Part shown: positions 49,969 through 52,095 of the stretch, piece by piece
Layout: every line of letters starts with the position of its first letter
How positions within the stretch are numbered: the stretch's first letter is position 1
Source: Flavobacterium sp. N1736
GTDB lineage: Bacteria > Bacteroidota > Bacteroidia > Flavobacteriales > Flavobacteriaceae
Assembly: GCF_025947065.1 (NCBI RefSeq)
Contig: NZ_CP109994.1
Span: 2,108,001 to 2,172,000 of the forward strand
Length of the DNA: 64,000 nucleotides
Reading direction: 5' to 3'
Program-made: the position numbers and the translations under genes
Notes under the pieces: generated by a model
Told to the model about the DNA's origin: nothing
Seen by the model: the letters and a program-made list of their open reading frames with translations, nothing else
Databases searched by the model: none

Positions 49969-50014
49969 TTTGATTGTCGATTGTGATTGTCGATGATGAT
50001 TGCGGTCCTTCGAC

Positions 50015-50128
50015 TTCGCTCAGGAAGACAAACGGAGCGCCCATAAAACTAAAAGCCTTATTTCGCTCAGGAAGACAAACGAAGTGCCCATAAAGCTGAA
50101 ACCATTTCTTCGCTCAGGAGGACATATC
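50015..50128. repeat. 47-bp tandem repeat, two full and one partial unit
   Basis: TTCGCTCAGGAAGACAAACG starts at 50015 and 50062, and a divergent partial unit (TTCGCTCAGGAGGACA) at 50109: period 47 bp. Related single copy at 26647-26675. No spacers between units, so not a CRISPR array. Confidence 0.75.
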
Positions 50129-50338: not shown

Positions 50339-51424
50339 ATGGAACAATTTGTAGTATCGGCTCGTAAATATCGCCCACAAACCTTTAAGGATGTTGTAGG
50401 CCAGAAAGCCATTACCAATACTTTGCTAAACGCCATAGAAAGCAATCACCTTGCCTCTGCCCTTTTATTCACGGGACCGCGTGGCGTTGGAAAAACGACT
50501 TGCGCGCGTATTTTGGCTCGAAAAATAAATCAGCCGGGATATGACGATCCAAACGAAGATTTTGCGTTTAACGTTTTTGAGTTGGATGCCGCTTCAAACA
50601 ACTCGGTTGATGATATTCGAAGTCTGATTGATCAGGTTCGAATTCCGCCACAAACCGGGCAATACAAAGTCTATATTATTGACGAGGTTCATATGTTGTC
50701 TTCGGCAGCTTTTAATGCTTTTTTGAAAACATTGGAAGAACCGCCAAAACATGCTATTTTTATTTTGGCAACTACGGAGAAACACAAAATTATTCCAACG
50801 ATTTTATCTCGTTGTCAGATATTTGATTTCAAGAGAATTACTGTAAAAGATGCTAAAGAACATTTGGCAGAAGTTGCAACAAGTCAGGGAATTAATTTTG
50901 AAGACGATGCTTTGCACATTATCGCTCAAAAAGCTGATGGTGCCATGCGTGACGCTTTATCGATTTTTGACCGTGTGGTTTCTTATTGCGGAACCAACTT
51001 AACACGTCAGGCTGTAACCGAAAACCTAAACGTTTTAGATTACGAAACGTACATTAGTATTACCGATTTACTTTTAGAAAATAAAATTCCGGATCTTTTA
51101 ATTGCTTACAATGAAATTCTTGCAAAAGGTTTCGACGGTCATCATTTTATTGCCGGATTAGCTTCGCATTTCAGAGATTTATTGGTAAGCAAAACTCCTG
51201 CTACTTTAAGTTTGCTTGAAGTTGGTGAACAAGCGCAGCAAATGTACGGCGTACAGGCGCAAAAATGTTCTCAGGAATTTTTACTTAAAGGAATTGACAT
51301 TGCAAACGACTGCGATTTAAAATATAAATTAAGTCAGAATCAGCGACTTTTGGTCGAATTATGTTTGATGCAATTAGCCTCTATCAACTTTGATGGAGAA
51401 AAAAAAAAGTTGAGCAATTCATAA
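50339..51424 (+). CDS. dnaX: DNA polymerase III gamma subunit (dnaX frame 0)
   Basis: 361 aa: the AAA+ clamp-loader ATPase. Walker A GPRGVGKTT (46-54), Walker B with DEVHML (115-120), sensor 1 ATTEKH and the Arg-finger region SRCQIF; domain III runs to the end (about 240-361). The Cys4 zinc module that normally lies between the Walker motifs is absent; the sequence there is NQPGYDDPNEDFAFNV. Frame 0 stops at 51422-51424, only 13 bases after a ten-A run. This is the short gamma form; the long tau form needs a shift to the -1 frame (see next entries). Its promoter is the consensus pair at 50288-50319. Confidence 0.9.
   Translation: MEQFVVSARKYRPQTFKDVVGQKAITNTLLNAIESNHLASALLFTGPRGVGKTTCARILARKINQPGYDDPNEDFAFNVFELDAASNNSVDDIRSLIDQVRIPPQTGQYKVYIIDEVHMLSSAAFNAFLKTLEEPPKHAIFILATTEKHKIIPTILSRCQIFDFKRITVKDAKEHLAEVATSQGINFEDDALHIIAQKADGAMRDALSIFDRVVSYCGTNLTRQAVTENLNVLDYETYISITDLLLENKIPDLLIAYNEILAKGFDGHHFIAGLASHFRDLLVSKTPATLSLLEVGEQAQQMYGVQAQKCSQEFLLKGIDIANDCDLKYKLSQNQRLLVELCLMQLASINFDGEKKKLSNS
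51399..51409 (+). other. Slippery A10 run with heptamer A AAA AAG (dnaX recoding site)
   Basis: Ten A (51399-51408) followed by G. In frame 0 the codons are GAA AAA AAA AAG, so the heptamer A AAA AAG (51403-51409) is in the phase that E. coli dnaX uses for -1 frameshifting. Sliding back one base continues as GTT GAG CAA in the frame of the tau tail. RNA polymerase slippage adding one A would give the same result. Confidence 0.75.
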
Positions 51425-52095
51425 TTCCGCCCACTTATTTTAAAAATAGCGGTTATTCGATAGTCGAAAGTCCAAAGGCAAAAGCCCAAAGTCTTGAAAA
51501 CGAAAATTCAAAGCCAAAAGCTGAAAATCCAACTCCAGCCACTGAAGTTCCGACTCCACAAAAAACAGAAATTGTTGAAACTCCAAAAGTTGAAACTCCA
51601 GAAACTCCAAGAGCTGAAACAAAAGGCGAACCAAAGGTTTCTGCATTTTCTCTTGCAAGCATTCGTGCTAAAAAAGCAATGGAAGAAAGCAATAAATCGT
51701 ATGTAAAACCTTCCTCAGTTTTGCCTACGGAAGAATTTACGGAGACTGAAATGTTATTGCATTGGAACAAATATGCACAACGTTTGGGCGAAAAAGGTTT
51801 AAAAATCATGGAATCGTTATTATTGATTAACGACCCAACTTTGAACGGAACAGTTATTACACTTGAATTACCAAATGAAGGTTCTAAATTAGATTTTGAA
51901 AGTCAGCTTAATGGGCTTTTAGGACATTTAAAAGGACATTTGCATAATCACGACATTACAATTGAAATTATTGTAAATGAAACGATACAAACCAAAAGAA
52001 GCTTTAACGATCAGGATCGCTACAATCGTTTATTAGAAATCAACCCAAATATTGAGCTTTTGCGTTCTACATTTGGATTGGATTTACCTACATAG
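51409..52095 (+). CDS. dnaX: DNA polymerase III tau-specific C-terminal part (-1 frame of dnaX)
   Basis: Open in the -1 frame from the slippery site to 52095, 228 codons. It starts VEQFIIPPTYFKN, then a Pro/Glu/Thr/Lys linker (ETPKVETPETPRAE), then a folded part (about the last 125 residues, FTETEMLLHWNKYAQRLGEKG to STFGLDLPT) as in the C-terminal region of flavobacterial DnaX. An independent start is unlikely: the first ATG is at 51679 and lies inside the linker end. Together with frame 0 up to the site it makes a 585-aa tau. Confidence 0.85.
   Translation, partial: VEQFIIPPTYFKNSGYSIVESPKAKAQSLENENSKPKAENPTPATEVPTPQKTEIVETPKVETPETPRAETKGEPKVSAFSLASIRAKKAMEESNKSYVKPSSVLPTEEFTETEMLLHWNKYAQRLGEKGLKIMESLLLINDPTLNGTVITLELPNEGSKLDFESQLNGLLGHLKGHLHNHDITIEIIVNETIQTKRSFNDQDRYNRLLEINPNIELLRSTFGLDLPT

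Follow-up and report, generated by a model that had tools for sequence, protein, structure and literature searches.

The question raised by this locus is how the long product of dnaX, tau, can be made from a gene whose coding sequence is divided between two reading frames. The division lies at a run of ten adenines in a 64,000-nucleotide stretch of Flavobacterium sp. N1736 DNA, referred to here as the window (G000:C1:2108001-2172000). In E. coli, the tail domains of tau are described as contacting the helicase and the polymerase (PMC11470591), and if these contacts hold here, tau must be made. The need for the short product, gamma, was for a long time disputed in E. coli, according to the review PMC5009743.

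Results

Anatomy of the dnaX Locus

The window contains a single dnaX gene. A search of the genome returned one strong match and two others that were partial and 34% identical (E 6e-14 and 1.2e-10). The frame-0 ORF (50339..51424, + strand) encodes the AAA+ ATPase, the lid, and domain III of a 361-aa gamma-like product. The C-terminal part of tau lies in the -1 frame (51409..52095, + strand) and consists of 228 codons (51409-52092) followed by a stop at 52093-52095. The A10 run itself occupies 51399..51408 (+ strand) in the context GATGGAG-A10-GTTGAG, with GGAG (51395-51398) directly 5′ and a G directly 3′. It contains the heptamer A AAA AAG (51403-51409, + strand) in phase with frame 0, the codons of which read GAA AAA AAA AAG TTG AGC AAT TCA TAA across the run. 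The terminal TAA (51422..51424, + strand) is the gamma stop; it falls 13 bases past the run and arises from the tau-frame Ile codons ATA ATT. A TGA in the third frame (51411..51413, + strand) would end the reading of an mRNA with 9 or 12 A residues just past the run. Nearby stops are thus found in both non-tau frames, as in Thermus-type genes. A 47-bp tandem repeat of 2.4 copies, with a unit containing TTCGCTCAGGAAGACAAACGAAG, was also observed upstream of dnaX at window positions 50013-50124.

Given that the N-terminal part covers positions 1-370 of the 614-position PRK14971 profile and the tail covers positions 411-613, the two ORFs together make up one full-length gamma/tau protein. The N-terminal part scored 382.8 bits on TIGR02397, above the cut-off of 250, and so belongs to the DnaX gamma/tau family, and the PRK14971 cut-off of 685 was reached by neither piece alone (617.4 and 75.4 bits). 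The first-pass annotation had described a dnaX gene split at A10 with a frame-0 stop 13 bases on, a -1 frame open for 228 codons that completes tau, a heptamer phased for -1 slippage, and reversed roles in which frame 0 gives gamma and the shifted frame gives tau. Re-reading of the exact run and stop, the profile match of the tail, and the phase of the heptamer bear out this description at the locus.

Conservation of the Split in Flavobacterium

Homopolymers are error-prone and the window rests on one assembly, such that the split might reflect a sequencing error, or a decaying gene, with a true sequence of one continuous ORF. The alignment of related flavobacteria that the first-pass annotation had called for was performed with 138 distinct loci of the genus. 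The run was A10 in 134 of these, A9 in 3, and A11 in 1. Of these loci, 129 had the tau tail in the -1 frame, 6 had it in frame 0, and 3 had it in the +1 frame, so that it lay out of frame in 132/138. Runs of A9-A11 at all 138 loci, with the tail out of frame at 132, argue that the split is no plain sequencing error. The pattern GATGGNG-A10-B was present in 324 of 398 genus genomes, a count that takes in the pattern at any place in a genome. Together, the genus loci and the pattern count rule out sequencing error for the genus as a whole.

A search with the N-terminal part gave a match in 292 of 299 genus genomes; among the matches listed, the frames were 362-424 aa in length, save three of 603-609 aa. 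The tail was conserved as a protein, with 1551 proteins of like length found at E<=1e-3. Among the best 120 of these 1551 matches were some proteins named as Flavobacterium and called gamma/tau or hypothetical, and many others were on short contigs. This conservation, and the presence of a single dnaX in the genome, also speak against error or decay, which is accordingly given a negligible probability.

Extent of the Run across the Phylum

A total of 357 loci were read for dnaX, of which 355 were placed (L002 and L003 were not) and 347 were distinct. Outside the genus, the loci were drawn from the best-scoring search rows. Group labels follow search kinship, and some named contigs are titled as other taxa and are probably mis-binned (e.g. 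L067, L069, L075, and L076). A homopolymer of at least nine A residues at the gamma/tau junction is the form of run associated with Thermus-type slippage, and the A10 of the window is of this kind. Such a run was observed in 324 of the 347 distinct loci of the sampled phylum: 138/138 in the genus, 86/86 in the rest of the family, 61/62 in other families of the order, 25/29 in the rest of the class, and 14/32 in the rest of the phylum. Elsewhere within the 322 dnaX genes for which the tau frame was resolved, only 5 runs of this length were found in 555,124 nt. The run was lacking at 23 loci, 18 of them in the rest of the phylum; the 23 had a median G+C of 0.52, in comparison with 0.38 for loci with it. 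A-richness therefore helps to keep the run, and the within-gene comparison controls for composition. On a FastTree phylogeny of 208 chosen N-terminal parts, in which some supports were low, presence or absence of the run changed at least 13 times. Outside the genus, the run was found in all three codon phases and was followed by G, T, or C.

Reading Frame of Tau

Frame counts rest on the 322 resolved loci; L155 and L264 are cut off too early for a frame to be assigned. Of the resolved loci, 124 encoded tau in frame 0, 187 in the -1 frame, and 11 in the +1 frame, counts that are enriched for rare types because split genes of the family and unusual genus rows were picked deliberately. Orthologues thus shift in different directions, as in the dnaX genes found by GeneTack (see below). 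At least 35 changes of tau-frame state were required among 183 tips (10 for the +1 state), and shuffled labels gave a mean of 68. Frame 0 encoded gamma in 129/138 Flavobacterium loci and in 22/23 loci of family f4. In the rest of the Flavobacterium family, tau was in frame 0 in 66/86 loci; TAGC directly follows the run in 39/86, where a slip would run straight into TAG and thereby yield gamma. One base is sufficient for a switch, as exemplified by L138, which has A9 where relatives with identical flanks have A10. According to PMC5009743, one nucleotide can reverse the roles when efficiency is near 50%, dnaX being given as an example. At two loci, L131 and L302, the run was A13, three residues longer than A10, and tau was still in frame 0.

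The 11 loci with tau in the +1 frame were L046, L145, L147, L149, L153, L165, L166, L205, L206, L219, and L228. Their supports on the tree ranged from 10 to 94, some being low, and L205 and L206 were sisters. The three genus cases (A9) deviate from the rule by a single A and may reflect miscalled homopolymers; two of the three come from single-contig assemblies.

Stops and Codons around the Run

Both non-tau frames were shut within 7 codons in 282 of the 322 resolved loci; among 157,536 control positions the proportion was 20.9%. For the frame into which -1 shifting never leads, closure within 7 codons was observed in 274/311 loci (control, 49.5%). At the genus loci of the -1 type, this unused frame had a stop within 3 codons in 128/129 (34% of control positions). 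At frame-0 loci, it was closed within 7 codons in 62/66 for the rest of the family (control, 46%) and in 8/13 for the rest of the phylum. In f4, closure within 7 codons was observed in 1/22 (control, 51%) and within 10 codons in 21/22 (control, 62%). The double-stop pattern is thus weak in f4 and in the rest of the phylum, and these groups count against slippage in this respect. That stops are kept in both wrong frames suggests that the gamma protein is generally selected for.

The gamma stop corresponds to an Ile-Ile pair written ATA ATN in the tau frame. Its first Ile was encoded by ATA in 135 of the 137 genus loci with the motif (138 loci in all; background, 15%) and in all 62 such loci in the rest of the family (86 in all; background, 22%), giving 197/199 family-wide (224 in all). 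In both exceptions (ATC), and likewise in 3 of the ATA loci, a stop already occurs earlier in the gamma frame. Upstream of the heptamer, GAA was present in 138/138 genus loci, in comparison with 4-98% in 13 other invariant Glu columns, and the next two codons were AAA in 138/138, against 75-98% AAA in 14 invariant Lys columns. Given that the heptamer alone would leave the upstream GAA free, its invariance counts in favor of slippage. In the rest of the family, the codon comparison was limited to the 70 of 86 loci with a run start at the same column, and the resulting 70/70 is partly so by construction.

Sequences Flanking the Run

The first-pass annotation had proposed GGAG as a stimulator and had drawn attention to a weak downstream hairpin. 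In E. coli, the sequence AGGGAG acts as a Shine-Dalgarno (SD)-like stimulator of dnaX frameshifting and ends 10 nt before the heptamer. GGAG in the window ends 4 nt before it, and its spacing is therefore not that of E. coli. Within 25 nt upstream of the run, GGAG was observed in 136/138 genus loci and 63/86 loci in the rest of the family, but in only 8/61 in other families of the order and 3/39 further out in the class and phylum, the A-run being present at every one of these loci. Since GGAG is not maintained where the run is, and SD sequences reportedly go unrecognized by Bacteroidia ribosomes (PMC9976891), a role as an SD stimulator was rejected.

The CCGC/GCGG stem exists but is of 4 bp, and CCGCC was found 3′ of the run in just 49/138 genus loci, so the stem is not conserved. 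The 60 nt downstream of the run in the window gave an MFE of -5.7 kcal/mol and a z of 0.19 by a shuffle test that is itself blind to the E. coli hairpin. The same test detected no folding signal in the genus (mean z 0.14; z<-2 in 5/138, in comparison with 12 control windows) or in the family (mean z -0.21; z<-2 in 8/85, in comparison with 5 control windows). As the known E. coli hairpin, used as positive control, was missed (z -0.03, MFE -19.7), this is a weak test by which a hairpin cannot be excluded, and the case against one lies in the low folding energy and the lost stem. In family f4 (e.g. L215, L238, and L242), a fairly stable hairpin was predicted directly 3′ of the A-run, with z<-2 in 10/23 loci and 1/23 control windows; the folds differ between species.

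Proposed Mechanism of Tau and Gamma Synthesis

From the comparisons described above, the A10 run is likely to be a programmed transcriptional-slippage site that would serve as the main mechanism for making gamma and tau. In this scheme, RNA polymerase would make dnaX mRNAs with varied numbers of A residues. The templated A10 mRNA would lead to the early stop and to a gamma-like protein of 361 aa ending in GEKKKLSNS, and A9, A12, and A13 mRNAs would similarly give proteins of 357, 358, and 362 aa, respectively. An A11 mRNA would restore the frame and yield tau of 585 aa, and an A8 mRNA would do so with 584 aa. The predicted junction-spanning peptides are EKKKVEQFIIPPTYFK for tau and the terminal EKKKLSNS for gamma. 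Whenever a run slips, more than one frame is read, so a frame-changing indel in the DNA would cost little; cheap indels of this sort would account for relatives in which the "normal" product is tau and others in which it is gamma. The comparisons show directly the anatomy of the site, its conservation, the recurrent changes in the continuous frame, and the stops in both non-tau frames. Slippage by the polymerase and not by the ribosome, the production of both proteins, and the ratio between them are what we infer for the window.

The first-pass annotation had regarded ribosomal frameshifting and polymerase slippage as fitting the locus alike. Both are possible in principle, and the evidence now moves towards the polymerase. 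Under E. coli-type -1 frameshifting at A AAA AAG, part of the ribosomes would make tau and the rest gamma, either as the sole mechanism in Flavobacterium or in addition to slippage. Consistent with this, the heptamer is in phase in 134/138 genus loci, G follows the run in 138/138, the tail is predominantly in the -1 frame, and GGAG precedes the run almost throughout the genus. The rarity of the +1 type (11/322) also counts against slippage, as -1 ribosomal shifting would give the same result; insertion-biased slippage is an alternative reason for it, and both mechanisms may act together. However, +1-type genes are out of reach of a -1 ribosomal shift and could not produce tau by it, which argues against a pure shift of this kind. 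The frame that it leaves unused is nevertheless closed within 3 codons at all but one of the -1-type genus loci, and the conserved A residues exceed what the heptamer needs. The ribosomal reading is further weakened by the loss of GGAG in families that keep the run, by the reported disuse of SD sequences, and by the lack of a conserved downstream structure in the genus and family, as judged by the weak folding test. Codon phase alone was dropped as an argument against ribosomal shifting because any phase offers a slippery heptamer once the run has nine or more A residues. On balance, ribosomal frameshifting is considered unlikely at this locus.

Contingency loci typically have a long homopolymer where two frames meet, and in such a case slippage of the run at the DNA level would toggle cells between tau and gamma production. 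Run lengths would then be expected to be mixed, whereas A10 was found at nearly every genus locus, and species with tau in frame 0 also keep the run. Moreover, tau is essential in E. coli. Phase variation is thus very improbable, and programmed transcriptional slippage is the preferred explanation.

Other A10 Runs in the Genome

The genome was scanned on both strands for further slippage genes by means of runs of exactly ten A residues. Among 49 isolated A10 runs, that of dnaX alone joins two frames of at least 80 codons in different phases. Of the others, three fall within long sense frames and one within an antisense frame, and a ten-A run inside a gene is therefore rare in this genome. This agrees with the expected under-representation of slippage-prone runs in coding regions (PMC1088944). 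Two of the three sense-frame runs are between two Pfam domains, and one is just ahead of a domain.

The first of these runs (L444; G000:C1:3975271-3975282, - strand) is between the domains of a glycosyltransferase-2/DUF2062 fusion. A run of at least nine A residues was present in 28/30 loci of this type, the one in this genome included (relatives, L486-L515), the DUF2062 part was in frame 0 in 30/30, and a stop in the -1 frame was found within 3 codons in 28/30. From its sequence, this gene is a candidate second slippage gene, for which a conserved KKKG motif offers a plain alternative. The second run (L376; G000:C1:1833545-1833556, - strand) is between the domains of a pectate lyase-pectinesterase fusion. 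In relatives (L456-L485), at least nine A residues were found at 10/26 covered junctions, or 14/30 with a wider search, and the downstream part was in the -1 frame in L481 (A10) and L484 (A9). The third (L374; G000:C1:1592162-1592173, - strand) is in a TonB-dependent receptor just before a CarboxypepD_reg-like domain, with no Pfam match ahead of the run. As a control, other A10 genes were expected to lose the run. The pectate lyase-pectinesterase often did but the glycosyltransferase-2/DUF2062 fusion did not, and the control is therefore not clean.

Discussion

A dnaX gene of the reversed type with ten A residues, together with its reading as slippage, is already published. Antonov et al. (2013; PMC3711429) found 17 two-ORF dnaX genes in 12 genera by GeneTack, nine of them with 10 A's, and proposed transcriptional realignment for the A10 genes, taking a mixed shift direction as its mark; the review PMC5009743 cites this work. 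As in the window, tau in the GeneTack genes needs recoding through a -1 transition at poly-A. That set comprises 17 genes, whereas the present comparison follows the run across most of the sampled phylum, genes with frame-0 tau included. The main text of PMC3711429 contains no word starting with Flavobacter; its species are given in its supplement, and Flavobacterium may be included there. The literature searched (titles and abstract openings, with subscription journals mostly outside) held no account of dnaX slippage in Flavobacterium or Bacteroidetes beyond PMC3711429 and PMC5009743, and a paper on a flavobacterial endosymbiont (PMC3971599) merely lists dnaX as present. As far as this literature shows, the breadth of the run, the repeated role reversals, and the double-stop pattern are apparently new.

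The window shares with E. coli dnaX the gene, its two products (predicted here), and the in-phase heptamer. It differs in that the roles are reversed, ten A's are present rather than six, the SD-like site is spaced differently and is not maintained beyond the family, and the weak folding test used revealed no conserved hairpin. The Thermus thermophilus dnaX gene is closer: an A9 run, mRNAs with varied A counts, close stops in both other frames, and gamma and tau from one gene are described for it (PMC1088944, PMC5009743), and in the window the run is A10 and the mRNA variation is predicted. However, the template frame of Thermus encodes tau and that of the window encodes gamma, and slippage has been shown experimentally in Thermus, whereas for the window it is predicted from sequence. 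In Blochmannia dnaX, transcriptional slippage at an A tract has likewise been proposed as a requirement for tau (PMC3017870). By contrast, the frameshift in that gene is inside the tau-only part, downstream of the gamma site, and is read there as correction of a mutation rather than as a gamma/tau switch.

Taken as a whole, the observations can be joined into a broader proposal, which is advanced tentatively and is more doubtful than the slippage reading of the A10 run itself. A slippage site of nine or more A residues would be old and phylum-wide in the dnaX genes of Bacteroidota, and since slippage would supply both products at all times, the DNA frame would drift so that tau and gamma repeatedly swap the encoded role. 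Other genes may use a site of this kind where their domains join.

Judged from these sequence comparisons, slippage at the dnaX A-run is apparently far more widespread than the literature found states. Gene callers split one protein in two, as the tail-sized records among the best 120 matches that are named Flavobacterium and called "gamma/tau" or hypothetical illustrate. The changes of tau frame on the tree would constitute a natural experiment on the determinants of slippage efficiency and also bear on whether gamma is generally selected for. If the preferred reading is true, an essential gene for DNA replication would, across a large phylum, depend on the stuttering of RNA polymerase.
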